From Streptomyces spectabilis (lineage in GTDB: Bacteria > Actinomycetota > Actinomycetes > Streptomycetales > Streptomycetaceae): a DNA stretch of 64,000 nt. A program made the translations under genes and the position numbers. How positions within the stretch are numbered: the first letter of the stretch is position 1; each line of letters opens with the position of its first letter. Under the pieces are notes generated by a model that was not told where the DNA came from, searched no databases, and saw nothing but the letters and a program-made list of their open reading frames with translations. The stretch spans positions 2,118,501 through 2,182,500 of the forward strand of contig NZ_CP023690.1 of the NCBI RefSeq assembly GCF_008704795.1. The letters run 5' to 3'. Shown here in pieces: positions 5,078-31,217 of the stretch.

Positions 5078-5149
5078 TGGGCGATACTGGGTTCGAACCA
5101 GTGACCTCTTCGGTGTGAACGAAGCGCTCTCCCACTGAGCTAATCGCCC
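5078..5149 (-). tRNA. tRNA-Val(CAC), copy 1
   Basis: A 72-nt cloverleaf with a 7-bp acceptor stem GGGCGAT/ATCGCCC, anticodon stem CTTCG/CGAAG with loop TTCACAC (anticodon CAC, reads GTG), T-loop TTCGAAC and discriminator A. CCA is not encoded. It is identical over its whole length to the copy at 5873-5944. Confidence 0.95.
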
Positions 5150-5222
5150 GGGAACGCACTGAACAATACAGGTCCGGGCGCCGATCCTTCAAACCGCCCG
5201 CTCGCCCGACGGCCGCGACCCC

Positions 5223-5693
5223 TCAAGGGCGTGCAGCGTGCGGTCCTTCCCGGTCGAGGCGGGCGGCGAGACCGCGGCGTCCTGCGCGCATCATCAGCGC
5301 GTGGTTGAGGAGGAGGAGCGGCCTGCCGGGGACGGCGAGGCGGCGCAGCAGGGGTTTGCGGACGTCGACTTCCTGGTCGTAGCGCGCGCGGGTGCCGCCG
5401 CCTGGCGCGGGCGTGAGGGTCCAGCGGGCCCAGCCGTCGAGGTCGCCGGTCATGGTGATGGCGAGGACGCCGCGCCCGGGGTCCCGGCACCGCTCGCGGG
5501 CGGTGATCACTAGGTCGTACGGCAGGACGGAGCGGAAGCGCGCGGTGCCGCTGCGGTCGTCGAGGAGGGCGACCTCGCGGACCTGGGGCCACCAGGCGGG
5601 GTAGTCCTGGGCGCGTTCGAGAGCCGCATAGACGACGGCGGGCTCGGCGCGCAGATTCCATACGCTGCGGAAGCGGTAATGGCACCAGTCCAT
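5223..5693 (-). CDS. SRPBCC (START-like) family protein
   Basis: The 156-residue product has the helix-grip pattern of SRPBCC/polyketide-cyclase-like proteins: an opening beta strand (YRFRSVWNL), the conserved helix AVVYAALERAQDYPAWWP, then alternating strands and a long C-terminal helix around residues 115-150. Family members bind hydrophobic ligands in a deep cavity. The ligand here cannot be inferred. It sits alone between two identical tRNA-Val genes. The ribosome-binding site ahead of the ATG at 5693 is weak (GAAG). Confidence 0.8.
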   Translation of the reverse strand: MDWCHYRFRSVWNLRAEPAVVYAALERAQDYPAWWPQVREVALLDDRSGTARFRSVLPYDLVITARERCRDPGRGVLAITMTGDLDGWARWTLTPAPGGGTRARYDQEVDVRKPLLRRLAVPGRPLLLLNHALMMRAGRRGLAARLDREGPHAARP

Positions 5694-5830
5694 GGCTTCA
5701 AGTCTGCCGCCGCGGGCCGCGATCCGCGCCCCGTTTCCGACGGGGCGTCAACTCGAAGAAATAGGAAGCAGTTATTCCGGACGGTTCGGGGTGGTCCGTG
5801 AATTTCATGAAAGGGCGTCAAATACGACAG

Positions 5831-5862
5831 TGGCCCGGAGGCTGTTTCCAGCCTCCGGGCCA
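5831..5862 (-). terminator. Terminator of tRNA-Val(CAC) copy 2
   Basis: A 14-bp perfect stem (TGGCCCGGAGGCTG / CAGCCTCCGGGCCA) with loop TTTC begins 11 nt downstream of the tRNA in the minus direction. It lacks a clear U-tract, unlike the terminator of copy 1. Confidence 0.8.
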
Positions 5863-5872
5863 CAATCCCGGG

Positions 5873-5944
5873 TGGGCGATACTGGGTTCGAACCAGTGAC
5901 CTCTTCGGTGTGAACGAAGCGCTCTCCCACTGAGCTAATCGCCC
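5873..5944 (-). tRNA. tRNA-Val(CAC), copy 2
   Basis: The 72-nt cloverleaf is identical to 5078-5149, with anticodon CAC and discriminator A. The two copies carry unrelated terminators and flanks, so identity is confined to the mature tRNA. Confidence 0.95.
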
Positions 5945-12438: not shown

Positions 12439-12511
12439 GCGGACGTAGCTCAGTTGGTAGAGCGCAACCTTGCCAAGGTTGAGGTCGCCAGTTCGAACCT
12501 GGTCGTCCGCT
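12439..12511 (+). tRNA. tRNA-Gly(GCC)
   Basis: A 73-nt cloverleaf with acceptor GCGGACG/CGTCCGC, anticodon loop TTGCCAA (anticodon GCC) and T-loop TTCGAAC. It is the first gene of a five-tRNA plus-strand cluster. Confidence 0.95.
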
Positions 12512-12551
12512 CGCAGGAACGCGGGGGATCATCCCGAAACCCCGTACTCCT

Positions 12552-12622
12552 GGTGGAGTGGCCGAGAGGCGAGGCAACGGCCTGCAAAGCCGTCTACACG
12601 GGTTCAAATCCCGTCTCCACCT
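12552..12622 (+). tRNA. tRNA-Cys(GCA)
   Basis: A 71-nt cloverleaf with acceptor GGTGGAG/CTCCACC, anticodon loop CTGCAAA (anticodon GCA) and discriminator T (U in the RNA), as usual for tRNA-Cys. Confidence 0.94.
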
Positions 12623-12626
12623 CCAA

Positions 12627-12698
12627 GGACGATTAGCTCAGCGGGAGAGCGCTTCCCTGACACGGAAGAGGTCACTGGTTCAATCCCAGTATCGTCCA
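12627..12698 (+). tRNA. tRNA-Val(GAC), copy 1
   Basis: A 72-nt cloverleaf with anticodon loop CTGACAC (GAC) and acceptor GGACGAT/ATCGTCC. It starts only 4 nt after tRNA-Cys, so the two come from one transcript. Confidence 0.95.
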
Positions 12699-12752
12699 CT
12701 GGAATCTCTGATCATGAGACTCACGGGTCTGTGATCACGCAGAGGTTTCCCC

Positions 12753-12824
12753 GCGCGATTAGCTCAGCGGGAGAGCGCTTCCCTGACACGGAAGAGGTCA
12801 CTGGTTCAATCCCAGTATCGCGCA
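12753..12824 (+). tRNA. tRNA-Val(GAC), copy 2
   Basis: Identical to copy 1 except for the acceptor stem, which is GCGCGAT/ATCGCGC. The changes at positions 2 and 3 are compensated on the 3' side, so the stem is intact. Confidence 0.95.
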
Positions 12825-12867
12825 CGCAGCACCTACCACCTGCGGGTATACACTCGCTGATGGTCCC

Positions 12868-12939
12868 GCGCGATTAGCTCAGCGGGAGAGCGCTTCCCTG
12901 ACACGGAAGAGGTCACTGGTTCAATCCCAGTATCGCGCA
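12868..12939 (+). tRNA. tRNA-Val(GAC), copy 3
   Basis: Identical to copy 2 over all 72 nt, including the GCGCGAT acceptor stem. It is the last gene of the cluster and is followed at once by a terminator. Confidence 0.95.
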
Positions 12940-26135: not shown

Positions 26136-26963
26136 TCAGCCCGTCGTGACGGGCAGCACCGACCCCTTGTACTCGTCCTCGATGAACTTCTTCACCTCGG
26201 GCGACTTCAGGAGCTTGGCGAGCTTCCTGACCTCGGGGTCGTCCTCGTTGCCCCGCTTCACGGCGAGGACGTTGTTGTACGGGTTGTCCTTCACCGACTC
26301 CAGGAGGATGGCGTCCTCCTTGGGGCTCAGGCCCGCGTCGAGCGCGAAGTTGTTGTTGATGACGGCCGCGTCGACGTCCTTCAGGGAGCGCGGCAGCTGC
26401 GCGGGCTCCAGGGGCTTGATGGTGAGCTTCTTCGGGTTGGCCGCGATGTCCTCGGGGGTGGCGTTCGCACCCGCACCCTTCTTGAGCCCGATCACGCCCT
26501 TGGAGGCGAGCAGTTGGAGCGCCCGGCCTTCGTTGGTGGTGTCGTTCGGGACGGCGACGGTGGCTCCGGACTTCAGCTGGGTGACGTCCTGGAGCTTCTT
26601 GCCGGAGTCCGCGTACACGCCCATCGGCGGCAGGTAGACCTCGGTCACCGGCACCAGGTCCGCCTTCTTGGAGGAGTTGAAGTCCTTCAAGTAGGGGGTG
26701 TGCTGGTAGAGGTTGGCGTCGAGGGAGCCCTCCTGGAGTGCGGTGTTCGGCGCGACGTAGTCGGTGAACTCGCGGATCTGGAGGTCGAGGCCCTCCTTCT
26801 CGGCCAGGTTCTTCTGGATGTACTCGAGGACCTCACCGGCCGGGGTCGGGGTGGCTCCGACGACGAGCTTGTCGCCGTCGGAGCCGGAGCCCGAGCCGCA
26901 GGCGGTCAGGCCGAGCGCCAGGGCCAGGGCCCCGGCCGCCACGGCTGTGACCGGCGTCCGCAT
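26136..26963 (-). CDS. metQ: MetQ/NlpA-family substrate-binding lipoprotein, second copy
   Basis: The 275-residue protein has a lipoprotein signal peptide ending in the lipobox LTAC (Cys about 22). The NlpA-family domain follows: VGATPTPAGEVLEYIQ, EFTDYVAPNTAL, VAVPNDTTNEGRALQLL and DVDAAVINNNFALDAGL. It should bind methionine or a related amino acid outside the membrane and deliver it to MetI/MetN. The ATG is one base after the TGA of the preceding metQ (TGACATG), so translation is coupled. The two copies are clearly paralogous but diverged, so they may differ in ligand, for example L- versus D-methionine or the sulfoxide. Confidence 0.9.
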   Translation of the reverse strand: MRTPVTAVAAGALALALGLTACGSGSGSDGDKLVVGATPTPAGEVLEYIQKNLAEKEGLDLQIREFTDYVAPNTALQEGSLDANLYQHTPYLKDFNSSKKADLVPVTEVYLPPMGVYADSGKKLQDVTQLKSGATVAVPNDTTNEGRALQLLASKGVIGLKKGAGANATPEDIAANPKKLTIKPLEPAQLPRSLKDVDAAVINNNFALDAGLSPKEDAILLESVKDNPYNNVLAVKRGNEDDPEVRKLAKLLKSPEVKKFIEDEYKGSVLPVTTG

Positions 26964-26964
26964 G

Positions 26965-27798
26965 TCAGAACGCCGCGACGATGGAGCCGTCGTACTTGTC
27001 GTCGATGAACTTCTTGACCTCGGGCGAGGTGAGGAGCTTGACGAGCTTCTTCACGCGCGGGTCGTTCTCGTTGCCCTTCTTCACGGCGAGGAAGTTGCCG
27101 TAGGGGTTGCCCTTGGCCTTCTCGGCGACGAGGGCGTCCTTGGCGGGGCTGAGGTCGGCCTCCAGGGCGTAGTTGCCGTTGATGACCGCGGCGTCGACGT
27201 CCTTGATGGTGCGCGGCAGGGCCGCGGCCTCCAGCTCCTTGAACTTCAGGCCCTTGGGGTTGGACGCGATGTCCTTGGGGGTGGCCTCGAAGCCGACGCC
27301 GTCCTTGAGCTTGATGACGCCGTTGTCCGCGAGGAGCTTCAGGGCGCGCGCCTCGTTGGTGGTGTCGTTCGGGATGGCGACCGTCGCGCCCTTGCCGAGC
27401 TCGTCGAGCCCCTTGACCTTCTTCGAGTAGACGCCCAGCGGCTCCAGGTGCACCGTGCCGTTCGGGACGGGGACGATGTCCGTCCCGTTCTTCTTGTTGA
27501 AGTCGTCCAGGTACGGCTTGTGCTGGAAGTAGTTCGCGAAGACCTCACCCTGCTGCGTCGCCGTGTTCGGCGTGACGTAGTCGGTGAACTCCTTGACCTC
27601 CAGGTCGAGGCCCGCCTTCTTCGCCAGCTTCTTCTGGACGAAGTCGAGGATCTGGCCCTGCGGGGTCGGGGTCGCGGCGACGACGAGCGGGCCGTCCTTG
27701 TCGCCCGCGGAGCCCTTGTCCGAACCGCAGGCGGTGAGCCCCAGGGTGAGGGCTCCGGCGGTCAGGACAGCAGCTGTGATCTTGGTGGTGTTACGCAC
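26965..27798 (-). CDS. metQ: MetQ/NlpA-family substrate-binding lipoprotein, first copy
   Basis: The 277-residue lipoprotein has a signal peptide with lipobox LTAC followed by GSDKGS. The mature domain has the same NlpA landmarks as its downstream paralogue: VAATPTPQGQILDFVQ, EFTDYVTPNTAT, VAIPNDTTNEARALKLL and DVDAAVINGNYALEADL. The GTG at 27798 was chosen because GGAGAAAGG lies about 8 nt upstream and it gives a normal-length signal peptide. It follows metI by 96 nt on the same strand and is the first of two adjacent binding-protein genes. Confidence 0.92.
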   Translation of the reverse strand: MRNTTKITAAVLTAGALTLGLTACGSDKGSAGDKDGPLVVAATPTPQGQILDFVQKKLAKKAGLDLEVKEFTDYVTPNTATQQGEVFANYFQHKPYLDDFNKKNGTDIVPVPNGTVHLEPLGVYSKKVKGLDELGKGATVAIPNDTTNEARALKLLADNGVIKLKDGVGFEATPKDIASNPKGLKFKELEAAALPRTIKDVDAAVINGNYALEADLSPAKDALVAEKAKGNPYGNFLAVKKGNENDPRVKKLVKLLTSPEVKKFIDDKYDGSIVAAF

Positions 27799-27894
27799 GA
27801 AAAGTGCCTTTCTCCATGGGTGGTACACCCCCGCGGTCGGTGGCTGCGGGGTGGCGCTGGGCGTTCGCTGGGCGAACTCAGCAGATCTGGGGGC

Positions 27895-28644
27895 TCAGGA
27901 GGCCTTGACGGGCTCGGCCTCGGCCGTGAGGGTCTTCGGGGTCTTGGCGCGCAGCAGCTTCAGGGTCGGCGCGGGCCCCGAGTGACCGCCGCGCCGGTGG
28001 AGCCTGCGCGCGGCGAAGTCACCGACGAACTGGATGATCGAGATGACCACGGCGAGGATGCCGACGGTGATCCACATCAGCTCGGTCTCGAAGCGCTGGT
28101 AGCCGTAGCGGACCGCGAGGTCGCCGAGGCCGCCCGCGCCGACGGTGCCGGTGATGGCCGAGTAGCCGATGAGGGCGACCACGGTCGTGGTGGCGCTGGA
28201 AATCAGCGACGGCAGCGACTCCGGTACGAGGACCTTGCGGACGATCGTCCAGGTGTTGCCGCCCATCGACTGCACGGCCTCGACCAGGCCGTGGTCGACC
28301 TCGCGCACGGCCGTCTCGACGAGGCGGGCGAAGAACGGGATGGCGCTGATCGCGAGCGGCACGATCGCCGCCTCACGGCCGATGGTGGTGCCGACGATGG
28401 AGCGCGTGAAGCCCATCAGGGCGACCATGAGGATGATGAACGGCATCGAGCGGCCGATGTTCACGACCTGCCCGATCACCTTGTTCACGACGACGTTCTG
28501 CAGCAGGCCGCCGCGGTCGGTGAGCACCAGGAGCAGGCCGAGCGGCAGTCCCGCGGCGACCGCGATGAGCGCCGACCAGCCGACCATGTAGAGGGTGTCC
28601 CAACAGGCCTGCTCCAGCAGGGGCTGCATTTCGTCCCAGGTCAC
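27895..28644 (-). CDS. metI: Methionine ABC transporter permease
   Basis: The 249-residue protein is a five-helix MetI-type permease. It contains the coupling-helix region EAVQSMGGNTWTIVRKVLVPESLPSL, which contacts the ATPase, and the helix segments GWSALIAVAAGLPLGLLLVL and ITVGILAVVISIIQFVG. The GTG start overlaps the metN stop codon by 4 nt (GTGA), so the two are translationally coupled. It works in the cytoplasmic membrane with MetN and the MetQ lipoproteins. The last 30 residues form a basic cytoplasmic tail. Confidence 0.94.
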   Translation of the reverse strand: MTWDEMQPLLEQACWDTLYMVGWSALIAVAAGLPLGLLLVLTDRGGLLQNVVVNKVIGQVVNIGRSMPFIILMVALMGFTRSIVGTTIGREAAIVPLAISAIPFFARLVETAVREVDHGLVEAVQSMGGNTWTIVRKVLVPESLPSLISSATTTVVALIGYSAITGTVGAGGLGDLAVRYGYQRFETELMWITVGILAVVISIIQFVGDFAARRLHRRGGHSGPAPTLKLLRAKTPKTLTAEAEPVKAS

Positions 28645-29693
28645 TTGGCACCTTCCTTCACCAGCACGGAGTCCTGCGGCGCGGGCGTGTCGTGCCCGGC
28701 GACGTCGACCTGGAGGCCCTGCTCGCGCAGGAAGCCGATGGGCACGACGTTCTCCTCGAAGCGGCCGGGCAGCTCGATGCGCATGCGCCCGACCTGCTTG
28801 CCCGCGACGGTGTCCATGGCGGCGCCGAGGATCGAGATGTCGATGTTGTACGTGCGCGACAGCTGGGAGATGACCGGCTGCGTCGCGGCCTCGCCGTGGA
28901 AGGTGACGTCGACGACGGTGCGGTGGTCGCCGGAGGCGGCGCCGCTGAGCGGGAACAGCGCGGCGGCGAGCTGCGAGCCGGGCGTGGCCAGGAGCTCGCT
29001 GACGGTGCCGGACTCCACGATCTGCCCGCGCTCCATCAGCGCGGCCGAGTCGCAGACGGTCTTGACGACGTCCATCTCGTGCGTGATGAGCAGGACGGTC
29101 AGGCCGAGCTGCTGGTTGAGGTCGCGCAGGAGCTGGAGGATGGAGCGGGTGGTCTCCGGGTCGAGGGCGCTGGTGGCCTCGTCGGAGAGCAGCACCTTCG
29201 GGTCGCCCGCGAGGGCGCGGGCGATGCCGACGCGCTGCTTCTGGCCGCCGGAGAGCTGCGCCGGGTAGGACTTGGCCTTGTCGGCGAGGCCGACGAGGTC
29301 GAGCAGTTCGAGCGCCTTGCGGCTGCGCTCCTTGCCGGACAGGCCGAGGATTTCGAGCGGCAGCTCGATGTTGGCCTGCACGGTGCGCGAGGACAGCAGG
29401 TTGAAGTGCTGGAAGACCATGCCGATGCGGCTGCGGGCGGCCCGCAGCTCCTTGCCCGCGCGCGGGCCGCGTCCGGCGAGCGCGGTGAGGTCCTGGCCCG
29501 CCACCGTCACGGTGCCGGAGCTGGGACGCTCCAGGAGGTTCACGCAGCGGATGAGCGAGGACTTGCCGGCGCCGGACTGGCCGATGACGCCGTACACCTC
29601 GCCTTCGCGTACGTGGAGGTCGACTCCGTCGAGGGCGGTTACTTCACGACCGCGTGAGCGGTAGACCTTGGTAAGGCCGGAAGTGGTGATCAC
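28641..29693 (-). CDS. metN: Methionine ABC transporter ATP-binding protein with NIL domain
   Basis: The 350-residue protein has Walker A GQSGAGKSSL, the Q-loop VFQHFNLL, signature LSGGQKQRV, a Walker B region in which LSDEATSALDP replaces the usual D-E sequence normally, and the H-loop LLITHEMDV. The C-terminal 85 residues form the NIL domain, which binds methionine and allosterically inhibits the transporter in characterised MetN proteins. The GTG at 29693 is preferred (GGAA 8 nt upstream; the domain starts MITTSGLTKVYRS). An ATG at 29726 is in frame without a ribosome-binding site. It is the first gene of the metN-metI-metQ-metQ operon. Confidence 0.94.
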   Translation of the reverse strand: MITTSGLTKVYRSRGREVTALDGVDLHVREGEVYGVIGQSGAGKSSLIRCVNLLERPSSGTVTVAGQDLTALAGRGPRAGKELRAARSRIGMVFQHFNLLSSRTVQANIELPLEILGLSGKERSRKALELLDLVGLADKAKSYPAQLSGGQKQRVGIARALAGDPKVLLSDEATSALDPETTRSILQLLRDLNQQLGLTVLLITHEMDVVKTVCDSAALMERGQIVESGTVSELLATPGSQLAAALFPLSGAASGDHRTVVDVTFHGEAATQPVISQLSRTYNIDISILGAAMDTVAGKQVGRMRIELPGRFEENVVPIGFLREQGLQVDVAGHDTPAPQDSVLVKEGAK

Positions 29694-30085
29694 TGGGTTT
29701 CCGTCACTGTCGAGTGCGCGGCGCATGGTGTCGCCGGGGCACGGGGCATTCGTTCGGAACGCGGCACGGTTCTCGCGGTGGCGGTGGAACCGGAGGACGT
29801 GTGCGCGGGGCGGGCTCGCTTCCTCCGTGTCGCCCGGGGGCGGGACGCGGGGTGCGGGGCACGGCGGCTTCGCTTCGGGGCGCGAGGCTCAGTGGTACAG
29901 GGGCCCTCAGAAGGCGCACATTCGACACATACAACGAGCACCGGGCGTCGTCATCGCCTCGGTCGCAAGGGTGCGGTTGCTCGTCGTGGTCATGCGGACA
30001 GTAAAACACGCGGGCCGCGTCGCACCGCCACCGCTGTCCGAATAGCGGACGCTCGACGCCCGCCAGTCGGACGGTCGGCGTCGCC
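29694..30085. other. metN-HAD phosphatase intergenic region
   Basis: This 392-nt gap contains the leader-peptide candidate at 29907-29993 and about 210 nt of structured GC-rich sequence before metN. I looked for an S-box/SAM riboswitch and found no match to the conserved core, so control by a leader peptide or a protein is more likely. The met promoter is presumably upstream of 29993, but I cannot place it. Confidence 0.5.
29907..29993 (-). CDS. Candidate Cys/Met-rich leader peptide upstream of metN
   Basis: A 28-codon open reading frame, MTTTSNRTL through to the C-terminal CMCRMCAF, ends 214 nt ahead of the metN start in the same orientation. Three Cys and two Met codons fall within the last eight residues. 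An internal ATG at 29930 would leave just the peptide MCRMCAF. That is the layout of an attenuation leader whose translation reports on sulfur-amino-acid supply, and the downstream operon imports methionine. No ribosome-binding site is evident, so a leaderless start is possible. Hairpins exist downstream (stem CGGAGGA/TCCTCCG at 29821-29826 with its partner; CGGTTC/GAACCG near 29790), but I cannot assign a clear terminator/antiterminator pair. Confidence 0.45.
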   Translation of the reverse strand: MTTTSNRTLATEAMTTPGARCMCRMCAF

Positions 30086-30766
30086 TCACAGGCCCCTTCC
30101 GACGCGGGTGACGATCTCCACCCCACCCGCTGTGGCCTGCGCCGACACCTCCGAGAGGTCCCGCACGAGCACATCGGCGGACAGCTCGGCCGCGGAGTGC
30201 GTTGTGGTCAACGCCACGGTGGTCATGCCCGCGGCCCGGCCCGCCGTGAGACCCGCGGGGGCGTCCTCGAAGACCACGCAGCGCGCCGGGTCGACGCCGA
30301 GCGTCCGCGCGGCGAGCAGGAAGGGCTCCGGGTCGGGCTTGCCGCGGGTGATGTCGTCGGCGGCGATCAGCGTCTTGGGGCGGATGCCCACCTCGCCGAG
30401 GCGGGCCTCGGCCAGGCGGCGGGTGGCGGAGGTGACCACGGCCCAGCGCTCGGGCGGCAGCGAGGCGAGCAGATCGAGGGTGCCGGGCAGCGCGACGACG
30501 CCGCCCGCGACGTCGGAGACCTCAAGATCCTCGATCCGCGCGACCGCCTCCGCGACCCGCTCGGCGGGCAGCAGATCGGCGACGATCTCGGCGGCGGGGC
30601 GTCCGTGCAGCTCGACCCGCCCGAAGTCCTCGGCGGTGATCCCGTACTCCCCCGCCCAGCGCGTCCAGCACCGCGTCACCGACTCCATCGAGGAGATCAG
30701 CGTGCCGTCGTTGTCGAACAGGAGCGCCTCTGCCTGGATCTTCCGGGGATCAGCCTGGGTGTTCAT
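30086..30766 (-). CDS. HAD-superfamily phosphatase
   Basis: The 226-residue protein has all four HAD motifs: LLFDNDGTL with D18 and D20, VTSAT, the lysine of GKPDPEPFL and the acidic VFEDAPAGL. A helical cap occupies about residues 30-95. It looks like the phosphoglycolate/sugar-phosphate phosphatase branch (GPP/DOG-like); the substrate is unresolved. The start at 30766 gives a normal N-terminus, and the longer frame to 30859 would run into the divergent promoter. It is divergent from the membrane-protein pair that begins at 30858. Confidence 0.87.
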   Translation of the reverse strand: MNTQADPRKIQAEALLFDNDGTLISSMESVTRCWTRWAGEYGITAEDFGRVELHGRPAAEIVADLLPAERVAEAVARIEDLEVSDVAGGVVALPGTLDLLASLPPERWAVVTSATRRLAEARLGEVGIRPKTLIAADDITRGKPDPEPFLLAARTLGVDPARCVVFEDAPAGLTAGRAAGMTTVALTTTHSAAELSADVLVRDLSEVSAQATAGGVEIVTRVGRGL

Positions 30767-30857
30767 GGGGATCGACCCTACGCGGACACCGCCCGGCCGC
30801 TCCCGGGCCCCCGGGGCCGCGCGCATCGGGCCTTTTGGCCCGTAATAGGGTCTCGGC

Positions 30858-31217
30858 ATGCTTGTTGCCCTGACCGTCGCGACCTCCGTGGCCGCGCTCG
30901 CGCTCGCGGCCTGGTGCGGCTTCGCCGCCTACCGGGACCAGCCGACGAAGGACTGGCACTTCATCGGCATGGGCGTGGTCACCCTCCTCGCCCTGATCCA
31001 GCTGATCGTCGGCATTGTGCAGCTGGCCCGGGGCGAGCACCCGGAGCAGGGCACGACGATCTTCGTGGCGTATCTGATCGGCTCGTTCGCCTGCGTCCCG
31101 GCGGCGGGCTTCATGTCGCTGGCCGAGCGCACCCGCTGGGGCTCGGCGACCGTCGCCGCGGGCGGCGTGGTCCTCGCCGTGCTCGAAGTGCGCCTGTACG
31201 ACATCTGGGGAGGCTGA
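30858..31217 (+). CDS. Four-helix small membrane protein (119 aa)
   Basis: The protein has four hydrophobic segments at about residues 3-22, 38-58, 67-86 and 95-110. Short polar loops include YRDQPTKDWHF and ARGEHPEQG. It has no recognisable catalytic motif. The stop codon is separated by one base from the GTG of the next gene, indicating an operon of two membrane proteins that probably work together. Confidence 0.75.
   Translation: MLVALTVATSVAALALAAWCGFAAYRDQPTKDWHFIGMGVVTLLALIQLIVGIVQLARGEHPEQGTTIFVAYLIGSFACVPAAGFMSLAERTRWGSATVAAGGVVLAVLEVRLYDIWGG

Follow-up and report, generated by a model that had tools for sequence, protein, structure and literature searches.

The minus strand of the window, the whole 64,000-nt stretch of Streptomyces spectabilis DNA that was analysed, carries a metNIQ methionine-import operon preceded by a short open reading frame (ORF), the leader, and by several further elements (Table 1). 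On the same strand, a gene for a HAD-type hydrolase (30086-30859) ends upstream of the leader. The operon contains a tandem pair of metQ-type NlpA lipoprotein genes (26136-27828, minus strand). The tRNA genes of the window form a group of five at 12439-12939 (plus strand) and a group of two at 5078-5944 (minus strand).

Table 1. Features of the metN upstream region and the metNIQ operon in the window.
Feature	Position	Strand	Details
Palindrome, candidate operator	30035..30051	-	CGTCCGCTATTCGGACA; conserved block upstream of the promoter
Extended -10-like element	30000..30008	-	TGTTTTACT; ends 6 nt before the ATG
Leader ORF, metL homologue	29907..29993	-	MTTTSNRTLATEAMTTPGARCMCRMCAF, stop TGA; from reading, conservation and S. 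lividans metL (PMC8079986)
P1, 5' strand (predicted)	29979..29987	-	ORF nt 7-15
P3 hairpin, junction arm (predicted)	29964..29975	-	ORF nt 19-30; 19-22 pair with 27-30
P2 hairpin (predicted)	29940..29963	-	ACCGaGGCG/CGCCCGGU; ORF nt 31-54; 31-39 pair with 47-54, one bulged A
P1, 3' strand (predicted)	29931..29939	-	ORF nt 55-63, ending in the first Cys codon
Putative control-codon stretch	29916..29933	-	UGU AUG UGU CGA AUG UGC (Cys-Met-Cys-Arg-Met-Cys)
GGGC adjoining the stop	29903..29906	-	Proposed 5' strand of an H-type pseudoknot
Post-stop hairpin (predicted)	29869..29886	-	CUCGC-GCCCCGAA-GCGAG; base mismatch in the window; loop GCCC could pair with GGGC
C-rich spacer, candidate Rho entry region	29694..29906	-	213 nt; no U-tract; C 0.46, G 0.286
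metN-proximal hairpin (predicted)	29714..29742	-	GUGC..CGGCG/CGCCG..GCAC
Conserved block before the metN start	29694..29713	-	UCGACAGUGACGGAAACCCA
metN	28641..29693	-	GTG start, GTGATCAC conserved as start; ABC_tran and NIL domains
metI, permease	27895..28644	-	BPD_transp_1
metQ, lipoprotein, first copy	26965..27828	-	Lipoprotein_9
metQ, lipoprotein, second copy	26136..26963	-	Lipoprotein_9

The original prediction described a 28-codon frame in the metN orientation with three Cys and two Met among its last eight residues, and direct reading of the minus strand confirms both. The gap to the GTG of metN at 29693, given there as about 214 nt, is 213 nt. Of the 447 ORF ends examined in the six frames of the window, this leader alone carries three or more Cys and two or more Met among its final eight residues, and none of 46,719 ORF ends in 60 Markov-simulated windows does so. 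No NCBIfam or Pfam family matched the 28-aa peptide. A 60-aa GTG-started extension of the leader was discarded, its sole NCBIfam match being a chance one far below the cut-off of the family. In line with the earlier claim that the gap holds no SAM riboswitch core, Rfam yielded no family in the leader-metN gap when the whole window was searched at gathering scores, and none in 29680-30090 at E≤5. A SAM or other Rfam riboswitch was rejected, as no curated covariance model matched in the gap.

One member of this leader group is already known. In S. lividans TK24, metL (SLIV_29928) has been reported as a leaderless gene and a predicted attenuator of metNIQ; the study calls it methionine-dependent and remarks on its methionines and threonines (PMC8079986). 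The published peptide, MSTTSDRTPATEATTTPGARCMCRRMCAF, is letter for letter the leader of two of our loci (L133 and L168), and the S. spectabilis leader has the same position before metN, lies on the same strand and belongs to the same sequence family. The passages on metL likewise mention the lack of a typical rho-independent terminator, treat one species, call the termination unclear and do not speak of a conserved RNA fold, of a part played by cysteine or of how widely the leader occurs (PMC8079986). The transcript over the leader that the original prediction anticipated is thereby published for the S. lividans ORF.

The leader DNA (131 bases) matched 140 of 150 Streptomyces genomes at E≤0.001. 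These matches and 14 named records gave 155 loci with a leader, of which 154 have a metN orthologue downstream, 146-255 nt past the leader stop; the remaining one, L218, lies near a contig end. One further candidate locus, L222, was dropped as a short chance match without metN. Identical leaders were counted once, leaving 143 distinct ones of 28 to 37 residues (139 of them in the codon columns), and other genera were kept out of the Streptomyces counts. The leaders were also placed by a frame-blind rule, running from the first ATG after a -10-like motif to the next CGAATG or CGCATG. In all 164 distinct placed leaders (145 from Streptomyces, 14 from other Streptomycetaceae and 5 from a second family) this distance was divisible by three, across 11 different lengths, and none contained an internal stop. 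The strict placement rule failed on 35/228 loci (18/192 in Streptomyces, 8/22 in other Streptomycetaceae and 9/14 in the second family). By looser motif rules the leader precedes metN in 21 of 22 loci from other Streptomycetaceae genera, with L245 as the exception; these 22 comprise 20 of the best-scoring loci of a MetN search across Streptomycetaceae, whose best 30 matches were made into loci and read, and two named Kitasatospora records.

Both the frame and its Cys/Met codons are therefore conserved in orthologous metN gaps, as the original prediction expected. It had also expected the flanks to drift; instead, conservation of the RNA to either side is roughly on a par with that of the codons. 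The conserved frame and codons, together with the published transcript, support reading the ORF as a leader peptide that may sense sulfur amino acids. That it should be a chance ORF within a conserved intergenic region, which does hold other conserved DNA (palindrome and promoter), is extremely improbable: the frame is held in every placed leader, simulation never attained the codon clustering, and a leaderless transcript of the S. lividans homologue is published (PMC8079986). We conclude that the leader is real and conserved and very probably functional, and that the metL of one species is now seen within a wider structured, Cys/Met-coded module.

Beyond what the published passages on metL describe, the distinct Streptomyces tails keep Cys as well as Met. 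At least one Cys is present in 143/143 tails and at least two in 141/143; for Met the corresponding numbers are 142/143 and 122/143, and the tail of L214, with no Met, has four Cys. On these counts, cysteine has at least as strong a claim as methionine to be the sensed residue. In the 30 distinct leaders longer than 28 residues, the sequence after residue 20 consists chiefly of C (94), R (78) and M (66). Codon usage in the tails is skewed: UGU makes up 294/403 of the Cys codons and CGA 141/389 of the Arg codons, compared with 20/123 and 38/1210 in 32 large ORFs of the window. This excess indicates that the nucleotide sequence of the tail is itself selected. The Cys/Met codons could thus partly be by-products of constraint at the RNA level and, as they sit in sequence-constrained RNA, their conservation alone is no proof of amino-acid sensing.

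At minimum energy the leader folds into a three-way junction of P1, P2 and P3, with a z-score of -2.42 for 104 nt and -1.88 for 300 nt. Two alignments, each taking 45 of 153 sequences, were used to assess the pairing. For the junction together with the downstream hairpin, 91.3% of cells pair across 45 diverse leaders and both partners have changed in 8 pairs, a number reached by 1 of 500 shuffles; the count of further pair types, one weak measure of five, was reached by 64 of 500. P2 pairs in 98.9% of cells in 45 leaders and is kept with a shorter loop in several other genera. In several other Streptomycetaceae the P1 pairing GAGC/GCTC is replaced by GAAC/GTTC, a joint change that turns Ser into Asn and Ala into Val, and P1 is absent from the folds of several other genera (e.g. 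L240, L248, L252, L043 and L044). RNAalifold run on the same alignment retained P2, lacked P1 and paired the tail with the downstream hairpin. We kept P1 in the model despite this result because of the shuffle controls and the cross-genus compensation. The leader frame thus overlaps a predicted three-way-junction RNA with compensatory changes.

Such an RNA might do the regulatory work by itself, either as a riboswitch or as the target of an RNA-binding protein, with the ORF incidental. The compensatory pairs of the junction fit this explanation, and so do codons 18 and 19, which are nearly fixed as GGT (136/139) and GCT (134/139) when these make up 94/1357 Gly and 42/2075 Ala codons in window ORFs. 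On the other hand, all length changes of the ORF stay in frame (164/164 placed leaders), no Rfam family is present, and the second family exchanges the 5' RNA yet holds the frame into C-R-M-C-stop. We therefore regard a purely RNA-based regulator as unlikely.

Conservation runs on beyond the leader stop, through GGGCCC and into the hairpin CUCGC-GCCCCGAA-GCGAG. In the genome of the window the hairpin pattern has one exact place (25 places with at most two mismatches, compared with 13 for a reversed control). The pairing of this region was counted in an alignment, A3, of 37 of 53 candidate sequences, which left out 8 that lack the hairpin and 8 that have it, so that the following counts lean towards the module. 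The candidate pseudoknot stem GGGC/GCCC is paired in 97.3% of cells with no double change; its only changes are one-sided (C-G to U-G in 3/37), and the pseudoknot is hence a candidate. The post-stop hairpin is paired in 96.2% of cells and shows a double change at one pair (4/37), with at least one such pair arising in 344 of 500 shuffles. The hairpin as such is missing in 8 of the 53 candidates, among them Kitasatospora.

A covariance model, R1, was built from an 80-position stretch around the module. It found one place in the genome of the window. At stricter filters and E≤0.001 it matched 43 of the 394 genomes scored within the class; 39 of these belong to the same genus, 3 to a single other family (f17), and one match is weak. 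Of the listed genomes without a match, one (G501) is of the same genus; 331 further non-matching genomes fall outside that listing. In 200 genomes of f17, R1 matched 13, from 3 of 68 genera (L302 and L320-L331 among the loci concerned). All 13 f17 loci have a CGAATG 211-317 nt before a metN whose product is 60.0-64.0% identical. An Actinomadura record (L046), from the order Streptosporangiales, has a CGAATG 391 nt before a MetN of 61.4% identity, and by its likeness to this record the second family probably belongs to that order. The module is patchy there, perhaps through horizontal transfer of the operon together with its leader, through loss in other lineages, or because the filters removed weak matches.

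The leaders of the second family retain C-R(-R)-M-C before the stop, with ends such as CRRMCDR, CCRMCAF and CRMCGC; four leader starts (L327, L329, L330 and L331) are tentative. The CGAATG, the stop, GGGCC and the hairpin are common to both families, while the N-terminal part is unrelated. The last codons, the stop, GGGC and the hairpin form a module that is nearly identical across the two families. As an alternative to codon starvation, the nascent C-R-M-C-x-x chain could be an arrest peptide, stalling the ribosome at or near the stop on a small molecule such as SAM or a thiol. R-M-C-x-x-stop is indeed the most constant peptide stretch in both families, and the CGA codon is retained; however, conservation covers no more than about six residues, many Streptomyces leaders have Arg in place of the last Cys (the RMRAF types), and nucleotide constraint accounts for much of the invariance. 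We find an arrest peptide quite unlikely. That the ORF encodes a small functional Cys-rich protein and stands ahead of metN by chance is very unlikely: the frame is conserved and translated, but the N-terminal parts of the two families are unrelated, the peptide has no Pfam or NCBIfam family, the genome of the window holds one copy of the module, and 154 of 155 leaders precede metN.

The ten Streptomyces genomes without a leader DNA match fall into three groups. Two (G113 and G135) combine metN with a strong R1 match and carry the 28-codon leader MTGASSHHQAPETGTLSGARCPRRMCAR; six have neither; and in two (G008 and G050) metN runs to a contig end, with weak R1 matches at E-values of 0.087 and 0.0058, the latter on another contig. 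The six have no metN orthologue (the best MetN-like match is 44-48% identical), nor did R1 match them at E≤0.001, one weaker match having an E-value of 0.092. Likewise, eight other Streptomycetaceae without metN at E≤1e-60 gave no R1 match at E≤0.001 (one partial match at 0.076). Module and metN orthologue go together, in presence as in absence, in all eight of the Streptomyces exceptions that could be judged.

A strict sigma-70 consensus scan returned nothing at the locus. Of 151 distinct upstream sequences, 133 have the motif CTGNTT[TA]A[CA]T no more than 25 nt from the ATG and 6 nt (71) or 7 nt (62) before it, as would be expected if the transcript began at the ATG. The spacer between leader and metN is rich in C in all 153 loci (mean C 0.447, mean G 0.285; C exceeds G in 153/153), and its longest T run is 5, in one locus, and at most 3 in 143. 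No U-tract terminator was found between leader and metN in the window or in these 153 spacers, and the sole terminator-like match in 29600-30120, at 30025-30008, lies upstream of the ATG. A classical intrinsic-terminator attenuator was rejected, as there is no G+C-rich hairpin with a U-tract between leader and metN. In the region before metN, 6 of 9 predicted pairs show double changes in Streptomyces, all 6 in the metN-proximal hairpin, which covaries there though its sequence changes; it was not recognised by eye in the two Kitasatospora records.

Taking these results together, the ORF is probably a translated, leaderless leader peptide that acts as a ribosome-mediated attenuator of metNIQ and would respond to Cys/Met supply. 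On the observed frame, codons, RNA folds and metN linkage we base the following model, in which we infer the stalling and the sign and target of control. The transcript would start at or beside the ATG, as RNA-seq by others shows in S. lividans and the promoter pattern suggests here, and a ribosome would load on the 5' AUG and open the three-way junction in the ORF. When Cys-tRNA, and perhaps also Met-tRNA, is short, the ribosome would stall in UGU-AUG-UGU-CGA-AUG-UGC and leave GGGC and the hairpin free to fold; at good supply it would reach the stop, cover GGGC and break the module fold. The state of this fold would then decide either the passage of RNA polymerase through the C-rich spacer or the translation of metN. 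As no U-tract terminator is seen, Rho-dependent termination appears to be the likeliest switch, with translational control in second place.

No competing terminator/antiterminator pair was identified at the locus, and no clean switch between two states emerged when the RNA was folded in six states with a masked ribosome. In the window the control codons could be paired with the metN start, but this pairing was rejected because true pairs are no better than cross-genome pairs: the mean duplex energy over 141 distinct loci was -31.9 kcal/mol for true, -32.0 for crossed and -28.3 for shuffled combinations. A more specific version of the model, a ribosome-gated pseudoknot attenuator, seems possible though doubtful. 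In it, a module of about 55 nt would be opened or closed by the position of the ribosome on the Cys/Met codons, the stop-adjoining GGGC pairing with the GCCCCGAA loop. If true, it would be a self-contained, terminator-free sulfur sensor, nearly identical in two actinobacterial families with the rest of the leader replaced.

Related systems offer partial parallels. As an experimental precedent, mycobacterial polycysteine leaderless short ORFs reportedly attenuate downstream genes on cysteine (Canestrari et al. 2020, as cited in PMC9031893 and PMC13236596). The metN leader resembles them as a short ORF, here with a predicted leaderless start, whose conserved Cys codons cluster near the stop; it differs from those ORFs as cited in that Met and Arg codons stand among its Cys codons, which overlap a predicted three-way junction and border on a conserved module with a hairpin and perhaps a pseudoknot, and in that its target is a methionine importer. 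The LEU element upstream of leuA in Actinobacteria is described as combining a leader peptide with a conserved pseudoknot-type fold (Seliverstov et al. 2005, PMC1262725), for which the metN leader has a candidate; amino acid and target gene differ, and the codon run of the LEU element pairs with the leuA Shine-Dalgarno box, whereas the comparable pairing here shows no co-evolution. With the classical trp and leuS attenuators of Streptomyces, as presented in that paper, it shares a leader ORF with control codons but not the G+C hairpin with a U-tract after the leader (PMC1262725). The same source cites S. coelicolor ilvB, where changing candidate control codons had no effect, and this counts against a codon-based attenuation reading.

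In the openly licensed literature that we searched, we found no starvation or codon-change experiment on the leader, nor any previous account of the conserved RNA that surrounds it. This tiny gene and its conserved folded RNA, found in Streptomyces and some relatives, very probably tune the methionine-import genes to the supply of sulfur amino acids. If so, a major antibiotic-producing genus would control its uptake of methionine through a leader that appears to read cysteine as much as methionine. The leader would also be a compact and well conserved case for actinobacterial attenuation without U-tract terminators, a question left open for the cys and leu leaders of Actinobacteria in the passages on them (PMC1262725). 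R1 can be used for annotating such leaders.

Upstream of the promoter, the palindrome in its relaxed form, TCCGN1-3ATNCGGA, is present in 89 of 151 distinct upstream sequences. The form TGTCCGNNATNCGGACA occurs at 9 places in the genome with one mismatch, 30035-30051 included (the others among L253-L261), and allowing up to two mismatches raises the count to 72, compared with 32 for a control. ORFs near the other copies include those for an amino-acid permease, two family-5 solute-binding proteins, a cysteine dioxygenase, CstA (with the site at its 3' side), an ACT-domain phosphatase and an aminotransferase. The palindrome may mark a regulon of amino-acid or peptide uptake.
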